Assembly (NCBI GenBank): GCA_945956935.1
Contig: CAMFJD010000020.1
Location: forward strand, 1 to 34,210
Direction: 5' to 3'
Length of the DNA: 34,210 nucleotides
DNA from: an uncultured Bacillota bacterium
GTDB taxonomy: Bacteria > Bacillota_I > Bacilli_A > Culicoidibacterales > ZOR0006
Numbering within the stretch: position 1 is the first letter of the stretch; each line of letters begins with the position of its first letter. The notes below the pieces were generated by a model. That model ran no database searches and was not told the origin of the DNA. It saw only the letters and a list, made by a program, of their open reading frames with translations. This document shows positions 15,410-31,511 of the stretch, in pieces. The translations under genes were made by a program, and so were the position numbers.

Positions 15410-16042
15410 ATGAAGTGGAAGTATGATTGGTTTTTTACAATTGGGATGTTGGTAGCAACTATTGGAATAGGGATATATGCATATTTAAATGGAAATTCAG
15501 TCCGTGTTATGGATAGTGGGTTGTTATTTATAACAAGTGTTTTGACAATTATTGTTTTTGTTCAATTACGTGTTATAAAGTTTGCCAGTGTTCATTTTTT
15601 AGCACAGTTTTTTATATTCTTAGCATTATTTATTGGTAAATTCTTTGATGTGTATGCCTATTTTCCTTGGTGGGATACATTTTTACATGCCATATCGGGA
15701 GTAATGCTTGGCTTAGCTGCTTTACTCGTGCTTGGTATGTTAGTGCCAAGACAATTTATTCGTCAGTTGTCGCCAGTTTTTTTGGTTGTTTTCGTGTGTT
15801 GTTTTGGTATCGCTATGGCAGGTATTTGGGAAATTTTCGAATTTGCAGGTGATACATTATTTGGCTTCCAGTCACAAGGAAATAGTTTGTGGGATACGAT
15901 GATTGATATTACTATGGGAACTGCTGGGAGTCTAATTGTTGCTCCGTTTGCTTATATTCATCAAAAGAATGGAAATATTCGTTTAATGCGTGACTTATTA
16001 CAGATGGGTAATCAAACAATGGGTGGTCGAGATGCAGCCTAA
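15410..16042 (+). CDS. DUF2238/YjdF-like polytopic membrane protein
   Basis: This 210-residue protein has about six membrane segments. Two motifs resemble the YjdF/DUF2238 family: WWDTFLHAISGVMLG, with an Asp-His pair in a helix, and GIWEIFEF followed by LWDTMIDITMGTAGS. The conserved acidic and His residues within the membrane suggest metal or proton handling, but no function is established. AAAGGAG precedes ATG 15410; an upstream in-frame ATG lies inside the ABC-F gene and has no ribosome binding site. The 3' end overlaps the next gene, the cyclase-like one, by 11 bases, so the two are likely translated together. Confidence 0.6.
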   Translation: MKWKYDWFFTIGMLVATIGIGIYAYLNGNSVRVMDSGLLFITSVLTIIVFVQLRVIKFASVHFLAQFFIFLALFIGKFFDVYAYFPWWDTFLHAISGVMLGLAALLVLGMLVPRQFIRQLSPVFLVVFVCCFGIAMAGIWEIFEFAGDTLFGFQSQGNSLWDTMIDITMGTAGSLIVAPFAYIHQKNGNIRLMRDLLQMGNQTMGGRDAA

Positions 16043-16589
16043 AGAGATGGAAATTGTTGCTTTTTGTATCGACGTTCGTGGATACAAGCAGTTATTAGCT
16101 ACTTCAAAAGAGGAGTTAGCGGCGATTCTAGTTGAGTTTATTGCATATGTAAAGCACTACATTAATCAAATGCCCCATGTTCGACAAGTGAGCGTTCAAG
16201 GTGATGCGATTATTTGTGTGTGTGAAATAGTGGAAGATACTGATATAGTTACAGTATGGATGCAGTTGATGACACTTGTATCAGAACAATATCGATTGAA
16301 GGACCGATTAATGTCGCAGTCACTCTCAACTATTCAGTTTGGGATTGGAATAGATTGTGGATACGTTTATCATCAATCGACATGTATAGAAGCTCCACAT
16401 GGTGATTTATATGTTGGTGGTGTTATTAGTCAAGCTATTCGATGTAGTGATCACGCATGTCGTCCACCGAAGCCGTATGCTGTTATTGTAACGCCAACAG
16501 TCAGTAAGCGTCTCAGTGGCAAATGGAATTTGATTGAAACTGAGACTAGAACAACATATTTTGGTTGGAATAGTAAGGAGAAAAAGTGA
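16032..16589 (+). CDS. Stand-alone class III adenylyl/guanylyl cyclase-like protein
   Basis: This 185-residue soluble protein looks like a single class III nucleotide cyclase homology domain. FCIDVRGY holds the first metal Asp (Asp14), and QGDAII holds the second (Asp58). Their spacing of 44 residues is that of mammalian adenylyl cyclase C1 domains. IQFGIGIDCG matches the central strand and turn. GGVISQAIRCSD resembles the VNxAAR segment; it keeps the catalytic Arg (Arg137) but has Ser133 where the transition-state Asn is expected. It may be an active cyclase, an unusual one or a pseudoenzyme. No sensor domain is attached. Its start lies inside the preceding membrane-protein gene, and its stop lies in the ribosome binding site of the following transporter gene. 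Confidence 0.6.
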   Translation: MQPKEMEIVAFCIDVRGYKQLLATSKEELAAILVEFIAYVKHYINQMPHVRQVSVQGDAIICVCEIVEDTDIVTVWMQLMTLVSEQYRLKDRLMSQSLSTIQFGIGIDCGYVYHQSTCIEAPHGDLYVGGVISQAIRCSDHACRPPKPYAVIVTPTVSKRLSGKWNLIETETRTTYFGWNSKEKK

Positions 16590-16600
16590 GGTGATTTGTC

Positions 16601-17287
16601 TTGTTAACAGTGAAAAATTTAACGTATATAATTGAGCAACAGATTGTATTAAATGATGTCAATTTTGAGATTGAAACGGGTGATTTCGCAGCGGTTATTG
16701 GGCCAAATGGATCTGGAAAATCAACATTACTTAAATGTTTACTTGGTATGAATACGAAGTACGAAGGATCAATTTTGTATGATGAATTGCCATTGAAACA
16801 ATTTTTAAAGCGAGAGAAAATAGGCTATGTGGCTCAACACAGTTTACGATATAATAATTCAATCCCGGTGAGTGTTCAAGAAGTCGTAGCAACGGGATGT
16901 GAAAATTTGATTGGTACAAAAAAAGCAATTGCACAAGCACTTGAGAAAGTTGGACTTATCGGATTTGAGAAGAAACGTTTGAGTGAGCTTTCAGGTGGGC
17001 AGCAACAACGAGTTTTCATTGCTCGTGCCTTAGCAATGAAACCGAGATTACTTGTGTTAGATGAACCGACAGTAGGGATAGATCAAGCGCGTGTGAAAGA
17101 ATTCTATGCATTAATGATGCAGTTACATCGTGAAGGGATGACAATTATTTTAGTGAGCCATGATGTTCACTTAATGAATGCAGAGATTACGAAAGTAATT
17201 GCGATTAATCAAGGAGTTGCGTTTAACGGAAACTATGAGGCGTATCGACGCTATCATGCAAATTATTGTGAGTGTGGTGAGAGTTAA
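16601..17287 (+). CDS. znuC: Metal ABC transporter ATPase (ZnuC/AdcC-like)
   Basis: This 228-residue ABC ATPase has Walker [10 protein letters not shown], signature [15 protein letters not shown], Walker B LLVLDEPT and the switch His in VSHDVH. The pattern is that of zinc/manganese importers, and its partner is a clear ABC-3 permease. The C-terminal tail contains His and Cys residues that could touch metal. It starts at TTG 16601 behind GAGGTGA, which overlaps the stop of the cyclase-like gene. Zn2+ and Mn2+ types cannot be told apart here. No Zur- or MntR-like box is evident. Confidence 0.8.
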
Positions 17288-18132
17288 TGTGGCAACATTT
17301 ATTACAGTATGAATTTTTACAAAATGCATATATTTCAGGTATTCTAATCGGACTTATTGCACCACTACTCGGTGTATTTATCGTGTCAAAACGACTTGCA
17401 TTAATTCCTGATGCACTAAGTCATGTATCTCTTTCAGGGGTAGCAATTGCAACATTTTTAATGAGTATTGGTATTTTACCGCTTGGGTTTAATCCAATGT
17501 TATTAGGGATTGTTTTCAGTATTATTGGGGCAATTATTTTATGGCAACTGACGCGACAGTTTCATAATGTGCAAGAAATAGGTATTGCGATTTTGATGTC
17601 ATTAAGTTTAGGCTTAAGTGTTATTTTTATTGCATTGGCTAAAGGTGTGAAATTGGATTTAACGAGTTATTTATTTGGAAGTATCAACACTATTTCACGT
17701 CAAGATTTAGTATTAATTTTCATATTAACAGTCGCAACGCTCATTTTTGTTAAATTTCAGTATCGGAAGCTATTTGCGATTGTATTTGATGAAGACTTTA
17801 TCCGTGTACGGAATCTTCGAATTAACTTAGTAAATGGTACATTTTTTGTTTTTATTGGTTTAGTTGTGGCTGTGTCAATGAAAATCGTGGGTGTATTACT
17901 TGTATCAGCTTTAATGACGTTACCTGTCGCTATTGCGATTCGGTTAGCTAAAAGTTTCCGACAAACCATTTTTTATGCAATTATTGCTGGAGAAATTGGT
18001 GTGATTAGTGGTTTGGTAAGTTCATACTATTTAAATTTACCAAGTGGTGGTACAATTGTTGTGACATTGGTTTTGTTACTGTTGCTTGTATTCGGATATA
18101 CAAAAATAAGCTCTTTATTAAAAAAAGCTTGA
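17287..18132 (+). CDS. znuB: Metal ABC transporter permease (ZnuB/AdcB-like, ABC-3 family)
   Basis: This 281-residue protein has eight or nine membrane segments and the ABC-3 pattern. LIGLIAPLLGVFIVSKRLALIPDALSHVSLSGVAIA is characteristic, quoted here in parts: SKRLALIPDALSHVSL at residues 33-48 is the family hallmark. The later part, VGVLLVSALMTLPVAIAIRLA, is also conserved. The ATG overlaps the ATPase stop as TAATG, so the two are translationally coupled. No binding lipoprotein (ZnuA/AdcA) is in the window, so it must be elsewhere. The next promoter's -35 box overlaps the stop codon, and no terminator separates the two units. Confidence 0.82.
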   Translation: MWQHLLQYEFLQNAYISGILIGLIAPLLGVFIVSKRLALIPDALSHVSLSGVAIATFLMSIGILPLGFNPMLLGIVFSIIGAIILWQLTRQFHNVQEIGIAILMSLSLGLSVIFIALAKGVKLDLTSYLFGSINTISRQDLVLIFILTVATLIFVKFQYRKLFAIVFDEDFIRVRNLRINLVNGTFFVFIGLVVAVSMKIVGVLLVSALMTLPVAIAIRLAKSFRQTIFYAIIAGEIGVISGLVSSYYLNLPSGGTIVVTLVLLLLLVFGYTKISSLLKKA

Positions 18133-18157
18133 CGTGTCAAAATGTGTTTGATACAAT
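18129..18157 (+). promoter_or_regulatory. Sigma-A promoter of the T-box transporter operon
   Basis: TTGACG (18129-18134) and TACAAT (18152-18157) are 17 bases apart. The -35 box overlaps the stop codon of the metal permease gene. Transcription would start near 18164, just before the first T-box. Confidence 0.75.
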
Positions 18158-18163
18158 TTGGCT

Positions 18164-18440
18164 TGTAAATATAAATTTGAACTTCAAAGAGAAGGAGAGT
18201 AGCATGCCAGTTTGGTGAAGCGACTAGGGGTTGGTGAGAGCCTTAGCGATGACAGTATGTGAACCGCACCTTTGAGAAGGAACTCTGAACATAAACATAG
18301 GGGTTTCCGTCGCCGGCGTTAACGGAAAAATGAGGGGTAAAGTAAATGGGAGTTACTTTACAACAAGAGTGGTACCGCGAATGTTGACATTCGTCTCTTG
18401 AACTTGGCTAATGCCAGTTCAAAAGACGGATGTTTTTTTT
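18164..18440 (+). promoter_or_regulatory. T-box riboswitch 1 (apparent arginine specifier CGC)
   Basis: This leader has the standard T-box order. The S-turn strand AGTA is at 18198-18201, and the stem I distal motif GGTGAGAGCC is at 18233-18242. The opposing GAA is at 18261-18263, followed by one base and CGC (18265-18267). A stem II/pseudoknot-like CCGGCGTTAACGG and the T-box element TGGTACCGCG (18370-18379) follow. An 18-bp terminator stem (18387-18404 with 18416-18433) runs into eight T residues. Uncharged tRNA paired at the specifier would favour the antiterminator. The specifier reading relies on the usual GAA-N-codon spacing. Confidence 0.9.
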
Positions 18441-18475
18441 CGGGAAAAAACAACAATTATATACTATTGATTCAA

Positions 18476-18730
18476 TGAAAAAGAGAGTAATTAATGAACA
18501 GCGTTGCTAGCGAGTAAGGGGTGGTGAGAGCCTTATAACAAGTTCATGAATGAAGCGCACTTTGGAGAACAGACCTTGAAAATAGAGTAGGGGAATGCGT
18601 ATGACCGGCGTTAACGGAAAATGAGGGGTAAAGTTATACATAAGAAAAACTTTACAACAAGAGTGGTACCGCGAAGGAAGTCTGTCTTCGTCTCTTGAAG
18701 CAATTCAAGGGATAAATACAGGCTTTTTTT
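18476..18730 (+). promoter_or_regulatory. T-box riboswitch 2 (apparent arginine specifier CGC)
   Basis: A second complete T-box follows the first. AGTA is at 18486-18489, GGTGAGAGCC at 18533-18542, and GAA (18552-18554) is followed by G and CGC (18556-18558). CCGGCGTTAACGG and TGGTACCGCG (18664-18673) follow. The terminator stem is 18682-18699 with 18704-18721, then a T run to 18730. RNA polymerase must pass both decision points to reach the transporter genes. No convincing promoter lies between the two elements. Confidence 0.9.
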
Positions 18731-18764: not shown

Positions 18765-19562
18765 ATGATGAAAAAATTTATGAGTATGATGATGTGTATG
18801 GTATTAGTAGTAGGATTAACAGCGTGTGGAGGCGCGAGTAGTACGAGTGGTTCTGAGAACGAAATTGAACAGATTCAAGCAAAAGGTGAAATCGTTATGG
18901 CAACATCACCAGACTATCCGCCGTTTGAATTTCCATTAGCAGATGGGACTGTAGTAGGATTTGATATTTCAATTGCTGAAGCCATCGCAGCGGAATTAGG
19001 TGTTGAATTGAGAGTAGAGAGTATTGATTTTGATGGATTATTACCAGCACTATCAACTAAAAAAGTTGACATGGTCATTGCAGGACTTTCATCTGATGAA
19101 AAACGTCAACAATCATTTGGGTTATCGGATAGTTATTATGAATCTGGATATGCATTCTTAGTAAAAGCAGGTGATGAAGCGAAATATGCTGATATTGAAG
19201 CGGTCAAAGCAGCGAGTGTTGTTGTTCAAAAGGGCAGTGTACAAGAAGCATATGCAAATGATCAAGGGATGACACAACTAACAAGCTTACCAAAAATGAA
19301 TGATATGATTCAGTATTTAGAAACTGGTCGTGCGGAAGTTGTGATTGTAGATTCGATTGTAGCTGAAACATATGTTGGATTAGGTGATTATGTAATTGCA
19401 CAAGAGGTTACTGAAGGAAGTGAAGGTGGGAATGTGATTGCAGTTCATAAAGAACATGAAGCTTTATTGACAAAAGTAAATGAGATTATTGCTACATTAG
19501 AAGCAAATGGTCAATTAGAGCAGTTTATGGTTGAAGCATTGGAATTACAAGGGCAACAATAA
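18765..19562 (+). CDS. Amino-acid ABC transporter substrate-binding lipoprotein (probably arginine/basic)
   Basis: This 265-residue protein has a Met-rich signal peptide and a lipobox LTAC with Cys21, so it is a membrane-anchored lipoprotein. The mature part is a family 3 solute-binding protein: SPDYPPFEF, GFDISIAEAIA and VDMVIAGLS are the usual N-lobe motifs. Substrate choice is inferred from the two upstream T-boxes with arginine-type specifiers. AGGAGG at 18754-18759 could serve ATG 18765 or ATG 18768; the second has better spacing and would remove one Met. It is the first gene of a binding protein-permease-ATPase operon. Confidence 0.88.
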   Translation: MMKKFMSMMMCMVLVVGLTACGGASSTSGSENEIEQIQAKGEIVMATSPDYPPFEFPLADGTVVGFDISIAEAIAAELGVELRVESIDFDGLLPALSTKKVDMVIAGLSSDEKRQQSFGLSDSYYESGYAFLVKAGDEAKYADIEAVKAASVVVQKGSVQEAYANDQGMTQLTSLPKMNDMIQYLETGRAEVVIVDSIVAETYVGLGDYVIAQEVTEGSEGGNVIAVHKEHEALLTKVNEIIATLEANGQLEQFMVEALELQGQQ

Positions 19563-19596: not shown

Positions 19597-20280
19597 ATGA
19601 ATTATGGATTTGTTACTGAATACTGGCCGATGTATTTAAGCGGGGCTGGAGTTACTTTATTACTAGCATTATTTACAGTATTGTTCGGATTTGCATTTGG
19701 GATTTTATTCGCTTTTGCAAAGTTATCGAAACGAAAATGGTTATCATTATTAGCGAGTGCTTATATTGAAATCGTACGTGGAACACCATTACTTGTACAA
19801 ATGTTAATCGTGTTTTATATGTTACCGACATTTGGTGTAAATATTCCAAATTTATTTGGTATTGCTAAGTTTGGTGATTATACGTTAGTTGTGATTGCGC
19901 TTGTGATAAATTCGTCAGCTTATATTGCCGAGATTATTCGTGGCGGAATCCAAGCAGTAGATAAAGGGCAAACTGAAGCAGGTTTAGCGTTAGGGATGTC
20001 ACAGTCTTTATTGATGAGAAAAATTATTTTACCACAAGCAATTAAAAATATTTTGCCGGCGCTAGGAAATGAATTTATTGTTATTATTAAAGAATCGGCA
20101 ATTGTTTCAGTTGTAGGTATTGTCGATATTATGTTCGCCGCTCAGCAAATTCGAACAGCGACGTATTTACCGTTTGAACCACTCATTGTGGCAGCTGTTA
20201 TTTATTTTGTGATGACTTTTACGTTGTCAAAAATTATGAATTATGTTGAAGGGAGAATGAAGCAAGATGCTACACATTAA
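19597..20280 (+). CDS. Amino-acid ABC transporter permease (HisM/ArtQ type)
   Basis: This 227-residue protein has about five membrane segments. It carries the polar amino-acid permease motifs [14 protein letters not shown] near residue 50 and the EAA loop [22 protein letters not shown], quoted in short form as EAGLALGMS. It forms the transmembrane channel for the binding protein encoded 34 bases upstream. GAGGAAGG-type spacing supports the ATG. Its 3' end overlaps the ATPase gene by 14 bases. Confidence 0.88.
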
Positions 20281-20995
20281 AGATGTAAATAAATCATTTG
20301 GCAAGCACCATGTATTAAAAGATATTAATTTTCATGTTGAACAAGGAGAGGTTGTTGCAATTATTGGACCGTCGGGTAGTGGGAAATCAACGGCACTACG
20401 CTGCTTAAATGGTCTTGAAGTTCATGATAGTGGAACAATCACATTAGATGGTGAAGTATTAACACACGATAATGCTATGGTACTGCAAGATATACGCATG
20501 AAAATGGGAATGGTTTTTCAAAATTTTCATCTCTTTCCTCATATGACGGTATTAGAAAATATTACGTTTTCACCAATTTACGTTAAAAATATTGACAAGG
20601 AACAGGCAACGCAACAAGCGCTAGAATTGTTAGCACGTGTGGGTCTATCGGACAAAGCACAGGCATACCCAAGTCAATTATCGGGTGGGCAAAAACAACG
20701 TGTGGCAATCGCACGAGCATTAGCTATGGAGCCTGAGGTATTGTTATTTGATGAACCGACGAGTGCACTTGATCCGGAAATGGTCAATGAGGTTTTGCAA
20801 GTGATGCAAGAACTCGCAGAGCAGGGAATGACAATGATTGTCGTTACGCATGAGATGGGATTTGCCAAAGAAGTTGCAAATCGGATCGTTTTCATGGCTG
20901 ATGGCGAAATCGTCGAAGTAGCTGCTGCGAAGAAGTTAATAGAGCAACCTCAAACAAAGCGTGCACAAGCATTTTTGGCAAATGTGTTAAAATAA
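20267..20995 (+). CDS. Amino-acid ABC transporter ATPase (GlnQ/ArtP type)
   Basis: This 242-residue ATPase has Walker [10 protein letters not shown], a Q-loop in [13 protein letters not shown], signature [15 protein letters not shown], Walker [15 protein letters not shown] and the switch His in VTHEMGFA. The wording is that of polar amino-acid importers. The ATG lies inside the permease gene, behind GGGAGA, so the pair is translationally coupled. With the two genes before it, it completes a standard importer. A hairpin that overlaps the start of the next gene appears to end the operon. Confidence 0.9.
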
Positions 20996-24034: not shown

Positions 24035-24538
24035 ATGCATATTTCAATTGATATTTTACCGAGCCTACAGATTATGATTGGCCATACGGTGTCATTAACT
24101 ATTTTATTGCTCATTTTCTATTTCTTTTTATGGAAAAATTTTGCGGAATATCTCAATCGCCGTAAGCAACAAATTACGAGTGAATTTGATAAAGCAAAGA
24201 TAGAACAACAACAAGCAACAAAAAACGTCGCACGTACAAAAGAAGAATACGAATCGGCACGAAAACAGGCACGTAAGATCTTACAAACAGCACAATTTGA
24301 TGCAAAACGTCAACATGAATTAATTGTTGAACGTGCACGTCAAGAAGCAACTGACGAAATTTCACGTGGAAAAAATGTTTCGAATCAACTTTATAATCAA
24401 GCAATGGAGCGTTTTAATCAAGATGCTGTTGAGCTTGCAATGAGTGCAACGAAAAATTTATTGATTGAGCATGCTACATCAAATGCTAGTGACTTAATTA
24501 ATCAATCATTACAAAAAGTAGGTGAACTGAATGATTAG
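24035..24538 (+). CDS. atpF: F1Fo ATP synthase subunit b
   Basis: This 167-residue protein has one N-terminal membrane helix (about residues 15-35) and a long charged helix rich in Gln, Lys, Arg and Glu. That is the peripheral-stalk b subunit, which normally dimerises and holds delta at the top of F1. GAGGTGAG precedes the ATG. The last eight bases overlap the next gene (ATGATTAG), so the b subunit and the fused delta-alpha protein are translationally coupled. Confidence 0.88.
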
Positions 24539-26561
24539 TATTGGAAAGACGTATGCGGATACGATTTTATCGCATTTAAATGATCGTTTAGATCGTTTAG
24601 GGGATATTTTTGCTGATATTGAGAAAGTTCACGAATATTTTCAAACGCATCCACAGCGTATGAGTGATTTTCAAGTTGAAGATATCCATCGTGAATTCGG
24701 GCCAATTGACCCATACGTAATTTATGTTGTAAAAATGATGATTGTTGAGCATAATCTCAATCATTTTAGTGAGTTTTATCAAGAGTTTAAATTTATTTTT
24801 GAGCATAATGCTGAAGTGCTACATGTACGTGTGACATCAGCAGTTGCACTGACACAAGCTCAACGAGTGAAACTAACAGATGATTTAAAAGCAAAATATC
24901 ATAAACCAATCGTAATGGATGTACGTGTTGATGAGGCAATTATTGGCGGATTACAAATTGTTATCGGTGATCTTTTATTTGACGATTCATTACAAACAAA
25001 ATTAGAACAAATGCGTCAATATTTATTGCATCTCGAACATGAAGATGATGCTGAAATTGATGAGTTTGGTCAACGATTGCATCAAAAACTGCATGATTTC
25101 CAATTACATGCAGGTATTGTTGAAATCGGAGAAGTAAGTGCTGTTGCTGATTCAATTGTTTTTGCGACTGGATTAAGTGAAATTATGTACAATGAACTTG
25201 TTGTCTTTGAAAATGGAATGTTTGGGATTGCTCGTAATCTTGAAGAGGACCAAGTTGGGATTATTGTTTTTGGACAAGCAACTGGAATCCGAGAGGGTCA
25301 AATTGTGGCGAGAACATATAAAATCATGTCAGTACCAGTTGGTGAGGAATTAATTGGTCGTGTTGTTAATGCAATTGGTGAGCCGATTGATGGATTAGGA
25401 GAAATTCATACGAAGCAACAACGAGCAATTGAACAGCCAGCTTATGGTGTTATGGATCGTCAAAGTGTCCGACAACCATTACAAACAGGACAAAAAGCCA
25501 TTGACGCACTTGTACCGATTGGAAAAGGACAGCGGGAATTAATTATTGGTGACCGTAAGACAGGGAAGACGACGATTGCAATTGATGCGATTTTAAATCA
25601 AAAAGATACAGGCGTTATTTGTGTTTATGTAGCGATTGGGCAAAAAGATTCGACGGTGCGATCAGTTGTGAATACGTTGCGTGAACATGGAGCACTTGAC
25701 TATACAATCGTTGTGAATGCTTCAAGTGCTGATGCACCAGCATTATTATATGTTGCACCTTACTCTGGGGTAACGATGGCTGAATATTTTATGTTACAAG
25801 GAAAAGATGTATTGATCGTATATGATGATTTAAGTAAACATGCAACTGCTTACCGTGAAATTTCATTATTACTTGGACGACCACCAGGGCGTGAAGCGTA
25901 TCCAGGAGATGTGTTCTACCTCCACTCTCGTTTATTGGAACGCGCAGCTAAGTTATCAGATGAATACGGTGGGGGATCGATTACAGCCTTACCAATTGTT
26001 GAAACACAATCAAGTGATATTTCTGCATATATCCCAACGAATATTATTTCAATTACAGATGGACAAATATTCTTAGAATCTGATTTATTTAACTCTGGGG
26101 TTCGTCCAGCAATTAATGCGGGATTATCAGTTTCACGTGTTGGGGGAAGTGCTCAAATTAAAGCGATGAAAAAGGTATCAGGTACGTTACGTATTGACTT
26201 ATCATCATACCGTGAGTTAGAAGCATTTGCTCAATTCGGAAGTGATTTAGATGATACAACGCAACAAAAATTAGCACGTGGAAAACGTGTTGTAGAAGTG
26301 TTGAAACAACGAGCACATGAAACAATTAGTGCTGAGAAACAAGTTGTTATTCTATATGCATTGACTCATGGTCATCTTGATAGTTTACCACTCGAGTTAA
26401 TTGGACGTTTTGAACAAAAAATGTATGAACAACTTGAAGCCACATCGCTTGGAATGCAAATTCTTGAAACAATTCAAACAACACATGAATTACCAAGTGA
26501 AGCAGACCTTGAACAGTTTATGACTGATTTCAAGGCACTTTTCACACAACAGGTGGTGTAG
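24531..26561 (+). CDS. atpHA: Fused F1 ATP synthase delta-alpha protein
   Basis: This is one continuous 676-residue reading frame. Residues 1 to about 168 are a full-length delta subunit, ending in [16 protein letters not shown]. Residues from about 174 to 676 are a full-length alpha subunit, beginning at [13 protein letters not shown], which aligns with the usual alpha N-terminal helix. Only a few acidic residues (HLEHEDDA) join them. Alpha has the P-loop GDRKTGKT (340-347) and the Arg finger Arg536 in SVSRVGG. No stop, frameshift signature or good internal ribosome binding site is seen at the junction; Met161 and a TTG at 25077 are in frame but poorly placed. Each F1 has three alpha but one delta, so the fusion is structurally puzzling. 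Confidence 0.9.
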
Positions 26562-30773: not shown

Positions 30774-31511
30774 ATGTATGAGCATATCGTTGCAATAACT
30801 AACTCTTATACTACAGGAAGAAGAATTGCATGGCATTATTCGGAACAAAAGTTAAACCCAGAAATACTTTCAGGTTTTAAGAGTAAAATGATAGAATATG
30901 ATGTATTTTCGGATATTTCATTTCATAAATTACAAACTGATTCTCAAAGTTGGTCTAGTATAGTAGAAAAAGATAGCTTTTTTGCTGATTTAAAAACATA
31001 TGATGAATATAAAGAATTTTTGACAATAGCAAAAAAAGAAAAGGAAATATCAGCAATAGATATTGCGAAATACGTATTATCAAGATGTTCAATGTCAAAC
31101 TTGAAATTACAAAAAATCGTGTATTTTATTTATGCTGATTATTTGACAAGAACTGGTAAGAAATTATTTGATGATGAAATAATAGCGCTACAATATGGAC
31201 CGGTTATTTCTAATGTATATGACTATTATAAATGTAATGGTCGAAAAGAGATAACTGTAAATACAGATAAAAGGGAAGTAATGATTCCTGCAACATTTGC
31301 AAAACTATCGAAATCAGACGATAGTGATGAAATGATAAAGTCTATTGAAACTATTTTAAATAAGTATGGATCAAAAAAAGCTTCTACTTTGGTAGATATA
31401 ACGCATAGAAATGGAAGTCCATGGGAATTTGTTGTTTCTAAGGGGAAGGGTATTGGGACAAGCATAACTGATGACGTAATAATAGAAAATCATGACATAG
31501 AATTAATGTAA
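30774..31511 (+). CDS. Panacea (DUF4065) domain protein, probable antitoxin
   Basis: This 245-residue protein has a C-terminal Panacea domain (about residues 94-235). Its motifs are DIAKYVLSRC, NLKLQKIVYFIYADYL and LQYGPVISNVYDYYK. The first 90 or so residues are an additional segment I do not recognise, which could bind the partner. Panacea proteins neutralise many unrelated toxins, including toxSAS enzymes. The upstream RelA/SpoT-domain gene in the same direction fits such a pair, with the antitoxin second. AAAGGAGTGAT gives a strong ribosome binding site, stronger than that of the upstream gene, as expected for an antitoxin. Confidence 0.72.
   Translation: MYEHIVAITNSYTTGRRIAWHYSEQKLNPEILSGFKSKMIEYDVFSDISFHKLQTDSQSWSSIVEKDSFFADLKTYDEYKEFLTIAKKEKEISAIDIAKYVLSRCSMSNLKLQKIVYFIYADYLTRTGKKLFDDEIIALQYGPVISNVYDYYKCNGRKEITVNTDKREVMIPATFAKLSKSDDSDEMIKSIETILNKYGSKKASTLVDITHRNGSPWEFVVSKGKGIGTSITDDVIIENHDIELM

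Follow-up and report, generated by a model that had tools for sequence, protein, structure and literature searches.

Two T-boxes in series with arginine specifiers precede a polar amino-acid importer operon in an uncultured Bacillota bacterium

One survey reports that tandem T-boxes are enriched upstream of artQ-glnQ-artP operons in Bacillota, where triples also occur but are rare (PMC12452182, Table 2); in the passages drawn on here, it also describes tandem T-boxes before trp operons and thrS. In C. difficile, single T-boxes precede operons encoding amino-acid binding proteins (PMC11477304), and a review notes that it is not known how tandem T-boxes act (PMC7583486). The pair described here lies in a 34,210-nucleotide stretch of DNA from an uncultured Bacillota bacterium (hereafter the window, meaning the whole stretch analysed). 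It is a new example of this known regulatory arrangement and no new type of regulator: all elements modelled in the transcriptional T-box family RF00230 are shared, twice over and in the standard register, and the tandem arrangement is the sole difference. An earlier note on this DNA, made from the letters alone, had called tandem T-boxes known but uncommon; this is right, and tandems upstream of artQ-glnQ-artP operons have already been published (PMC12452182).

As in the artQ-glnQ-artP tandems, two complete serial T-boxes precede a polar amino-acid ABC importer. The gene order here (binding protein, permease, ATPase) differs from that of the surveyed operons, for which the passages drawn on give no specifiers, whereas both boxes here read arginine; the survey may not include the present lineage (PMC12452182). 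The trp operon and thrS tandems in the same passages (PMC12452182) likewise place T-boxes for one amino acid in series, but their targets are biosynthesis and synthetase genes rather than import, and the amino acids are others. Single arginine T-boxes in Peptostreptococcaceae (L016–L035) share the target family and an arginine specifier, but these leaders have one box and read AGA, not CGC. Finally, a tandem pair in an uncultured Tissierellia bacterium (L023) resembles the present one in reading the same amino acid before a homologous importer, and differs in its AGA specifiers and in its apparent origin by a separate duplication.

The leader follows a metal-type ABC permease gene (17287–18132) and precedes a three-gene importer operon. 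Two complete tandem T-boxes had been claimed for 18164–18730, and a covariance-model scan had been proposed as a check. Searching with Rfam (RF00230; gathering score 93) gave exactly two matches above the gathering score in the window, both of them T-box leaders spanning the whole model with ungapped specifier loops, and the coordinates of the span are correct. The features of the leader, in order, are:

18129–18157, + strand: sigma-70-type promoter-like site, TTGACG-N17-TACAAT with TG before the −10 (consensus scan, 10/12)
18178–18401, + strand: T-box 1, stem I to antiterminator (RF00230, 115.9 bits, E = 3.2e-25, model positions 1–219)
18196–18201, + strand: T-box 1 S-turn AGAGTA, 5′ strand of the specifier loop, present in nearly all related leaders
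18265–18267, + strand: T-box 1 specifier CGC (arginine), in the 8-nt loop GAA-C-CGC-A, ungapped in the Rfam alignment
18364–18400, + strand: T-box 1 antiterminator, containing TGGTACCGCG at 18370–18379 (fold −12.5 kcal/mol)
18386–18440, + strand: T-box 1 terminator hairpin and T8 run (18433–18440), overlapping the 3′ strand of the antiterminator (fold −35.3 kcal/mol)
18466–18698, + strand: T-box 2, stem I to antiterminator (RF00230, 115.3 bits, E = 4.5e-25, model positions 1–219)
18484–18489, + strand: T-box 2 S-turn AGAGTA, 5′ strand of the specifier loop
18556–18558, + strand: T-box 2 specifier CGC (arginine), in the 8-nt loop GAA-G-CGC-A, ungapped in the Rfam alignment
18659–18696, + strand: T-box 2 antiterminator, containing TGGTACCGCG at 18664–18673 (fold −11.7 kcal/mol)
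18678–18730, + strand: T-box 2 terminator hairpin and T7 run (18724–18730; fold −28.1 kcal/mol)

Each leader retains the S-turn, specifier, distal stem I motif, TGGTACCGCG element and its own terminator, as the earlier note had described; the distal motif AGCGA...GGTGA occurs with TGGTACCGCG in both boxes. Within each box, a CGTCTCTTGA strand is common to antiterminator and terminator, of which the terminator has the stronger fold by the energies listed, and the antiterminator, with the UGGN bulge that is a T-box hallmark, is mutually exclusive with the terminator. Applied to 13 leaders, RNAalifold recovered the helices of distal stem I, stem II and stem III, and 17 of 29 pairs showed double changes; it missed the helices flanking the specifier because the alignment was not structural, and helix arms were therefore compared directly. 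The minimum-energy fold of the whole leader contained cross-box pairs and was set aside, since an equilibrium fold of 567 nt is not the same as co-transcriptional folding. A generic terminator scan found no terminator in the regions of either species, its loop and arm limits being unsuited to T-box terminators.

Very probably, the leader comprises two class-I T-boxes in series, each reading tRNA-Arg via CGC, that gate an arginine importer. The CGC specifier of each box would pair with the anticodon of tRNA-Arg; the free NCCA end of an uncharged tRNA would then pair with the antiterminator TGGT, preventing the following terminator from forming, while with charged tRNA that terminator would form. 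Polymerase from the single upstream promoter would have to pass both terminators, such that the importer genes would be transcribed when two uncharged tRNA-Arg are bound, and the importer would then supply arginine. If the gates were independent, read-through would be the product of the two, giving a lower leak, a steeper response and a lower maximum; we infer from this serial layout that two boxes may give a steeper or tighter response. An unlikely elaboration is that each box responds at its own level of uncharged tRNA-Arg, owing to differences in terminator strength, stem I and the spacer base, and that the pair thereby produces a two-threshold response that would be impossible with a single T-box.

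The nearest relative that has a name is a sister species, Firmicutes bacterium ZOR0006 (L015), whose binding protein is 74% identical. It carries the same T-box pair, with GAA-C-CGC-A in both boxes and 119 bits for each. A second genome from the genus (G003) has match positions and scores equal to those of ZOR0006 and probably represents the same strain. In two more distant genomes from the order (G001 and G002), the corresponding gene showed no T-box. Between the two species, identity is 84% for box 1 and 75% for box 2, against 67% (this genome) and 70% between the boxes within a species. Because each copy is closer to its counterpart in the other species than to its neighbour in the pair, the duplication is older than the species split and both copies have been retained. 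The genome's remaining 11 T-boxes are 43–53% identical to these two, and the Peptostreptococcaceae arginine boxes, from single-box leaders, 53–66%. The helix above the specifier loop is wholly different in sequence between the boxes, yet paired within each (6, 7, 6 and 8 of 8), and exchanging its arms between box 1 and box 2 reduces pairing to 3–4 of 8. Both copies appear to be under selection.

It is improbable, on these comparisons, that box 2 is a passive leftover of duplication with no regulatory contribution. Single T-boxes do suffice before the related Peptostreptococcaceae importers, and slippage can create tandem duplications, as the near-identical L023 pair suggests. Against this, every element is kept in both copies, with the full scores noted above in the sister, and the helices have stayed paired despite sequence change while the binding protein drifted to 74% identity between the species. 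The L023 pair itself comprises two AGA T-boxes before a homologous importer, with copies that are 86% identical to each other and 44–50% identical to the boxes here; to judge from these identities, it is an independent, more recent duplication. With this second, unrelated pair, the tandem arrangement has arisen at least twice.

The serial reading, in which both boxes act on one transcript, also depends on where transcription starts. Two complete sensor and terminator units follow a single promoter-like site, with none between them. Promoter-like sites in the region were no more numerous than in shuffles, so the promoter call at 18129–18157 depends on its location and on comparison with the sister species, where TTGACA-N17-TAGAAT (11/12) occupies the equivalent place. 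This site is a candidate promoter for both boxes and the importer genes. Highly improbable is a separate promoter for box 2 between the boxes, which would make the two boxes alternatives rather than a series: a −10-like hexamer, TATACT, is present at 18459–18464, but no site between the boxes passed the consensus scan in this window, and the only such site in the sister is a weak 9/12 match that overlaps box 2 and has a different hexamer.

Turning to the identity of the specifier, both loops are closed below by 4/4 pairs (GAA-C-CGC-A/CC in box 1 and GAA-G-CGC-A/CU in box 2), and the frame was calibrated within the genome. Thirteen T-boxes lie above or near the cut-off, these two and 11 others, the latter upstream of tyrS, metG, leuS, asnA, serS, pheS, aspS, ileS, thrS and glyS (NCBIfam) and of a putative asnS, assigned by reading of the gene outside the NCBIfam scan. 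The specifier triplet begins one base after GAA in the tyrS (TAC), metG (ATG), asnA (AAC), asnS (AAC) and glyS (GGA) boxes, and directly after GAA in the leuS (CTC), serS (TCA), pheS (TTC) and aspS (GAC) boxes. Since the spacing varies between 0 and 1 among the boxes of this genome, distance from GAA alone cannot fix the frame; a fixed GAA spacing was ruled out as a frame rule by the four boxes with spacing 0, and the frame was instead counted from the loop's 3′ end. The spacing departs further in the ileS and thrS boxes, and specifier frames counted from GAA would be misread in this genome.

In TBDB, the specifier is defined as positions 2–4 counted from the 3′ end of the loop (PMC7778990), which gives CGC in both boxes, a triplet that makes up 52% of the arginine specifiers in that database (PMC7778990). 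The rule accounts for both GAA spacings and returns the correct amino acid at the leuS, serS, aspS, asnA, asnS and glyS boxes of the same genome, among which the GAA spacing differs. At the pheS box, the Rfam alignment sets the specifier one base off, with low posterior; the covariance model alone is thus no proof of frame. Related importer leaders have the same 8-nt loop, and all 13 loops compared give arginine by the TBDB rule: the sister species and two Bacillales genomes carry CGC, and leaders from Peptostreptococcaceae and Tissierellia carry AGA. Among these 13 loops, the spacer base before the triplet is C, G or A; it is T in the importer leaders L033 and L034. The synonymous exchange of CGC and AGA in exactly this frame is, at the level of sequence comparison, the strongest evidence for arginine. 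Both boxes also show the T-box hallmark of an S-turn specifier loop (AGAGTA / GAA-N-CGC-A) with a codon matching the probable substrate of the downstream importer.

Least credible is the register one base earlier, which the earlier note had itself set against its arginine reading and in which box 1 would specify proline (CCG) and box 2 alanine (GCG), making the pair a two-input gate for two different tRNAs. In its favour, the GAA distance is variable, with the triplet right after GAA in the leuS, serS, pheS and aspS boxes, and A73, which fits TGGT, ends both the tRNA-Pro found in a related genus and the tRNA-Ala encoded by this genome. Against it, the 3′ loop strand that is one base shorter in the leuS, serS and aspS boxes, seen as a gap in the Rfam alignment, is not seen in the two boxes here, related leaders would read CCG, GCG, GAG, AAG and TAG (proline, alanine, glutamate, lysine and a stop), box 2 of the sister would read CCG where box 2 here reads GCG, and GCG accounts for 1% of alanine specifiers (PMC7778990). 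The arginine reading stands, with covariance-model alignment, frame calibration and relatives in agreement on CGC in both leaders.

On the tRNA side, a tRNA-Arg reading CGC (anticodon ACG) was not found in the draft assemblies of the species or its sister, both of which seem to be missing several tRNAs. In a related genus, the discriminator base of tRNA-Arg(ACG) is G73, which would pair with TGGT only by G-U wobble; TBDB accepts such a discriminator wobble for Trp (PMC7778990). The tRNA-Arg(CCG) of this genome has A73 and fits TGGT. As a test of tRNA identity, the discriminator base is of limited value: the boxes for Asn and Asp in this genome carry TGGT as well, and neither draft contains the tRNA-Arg(ACG) gene.

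The operon downstream of the two arginine T-boxes encodes three proteins:

18765–19562, + strand: substrate-binding lipoprotein of a polar amino-acid ABC importer, ArtI-like (best PDB relative 4ymx, 3.3e-42)
19597–20280, + strand: permease, ArtQ-like (4yms chain D, 8e-61, its only PDB relative at E ≤ 1e-10)
20267–20995, + strand: ATP-binding subunit, GlnQ/ArtN-like (NCBIfam GlnQ, 3.5e-99, under cut-off)

The binding protein and permease are related to 4ymx and 4yms, which are structures of ArtI and Art(QN)2 from a thermophile determined with basic amino acids, and which place the importer in the Art type. The binding protein matches the NCBIfam Lys/Arg/Orn-binding subfamily at 2.4e-38, under the cut-off of that family, and reached no NCBIfam equivalog (named-substrate) cut-off; protein sequence alone therefore does not fix the substrate. 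Arginine as the substrate is supported by the specifier, the relatives and the missing biosynthesis genes. For the last two arginine-making genes, argG had no match in this genome (99.8% complete) or the sister, and argH only a 68-bit match, against a cut-off of 279.5; both families were above cut-off in 13 of 14 control genomes. With argG and argH not found, the cell is probably unable to make arginine and needs an outside supply. Arginine deiminase (arcA) is present at 529 bits, and the cell may also burn arginine. An arginine importer as the target of the leaders, as previously suggested, finds support in the specifier frame, the relatives and the Art-type homology.

Taken as a regulatory system, the locus is a clean case: two complete arginine T-boxes with the same specifier, retained from before the divergence of two species and standing upstream of an importer on which an arginine-requiring cell probably relies. 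As a same-specifier pair, it offers a simple system in which to measure the contribution of a second copy, and its arginine T-boxes also support arginine as the importer substrate.

Other sensors were observed at related importers. A paralogous amino-acid binding protein in this genome (L102 1144–1313; contig 1, before 170238) has a lysine riboswitch upstream, as does the paralogous binding protein in the sister genome (L100 1177–1347), placing two related importers under two different RNA sensors. Related importers in Fructobacillus/Fructilactobacillus have T-boxes (L041 2688–2914, L043 2699–2926, L048 2699–2926 and L054 2716–2943) with the loops GAA-C-GTC-G or GAA-T-GTC-A, which are not arginine; they read valine by the usual rule and serine one base later.

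Elsewhere in the window, a single 676-aa frame at 24531–26558 fuses the ATP synthase delta (OSCP, residues 13–165) and alpha (198–661) subunits. The sister genome has the same 676-aa delta-alpha fusion (87%), and both genomes encode, on another contig, a second F-type ATP synthase in which delta and alpha are separate. Beside the metal ABC transporter, a 199-aa frame (15990–16586) matches the adenylate/guanylate cyclase catalytic domain (1.1e-7), which is unusual for so small a protein in that position. Finally, a 245-aa frame at 30774–31511 contains a SocA-like Panacea antitoxin domain (6.2e-20).
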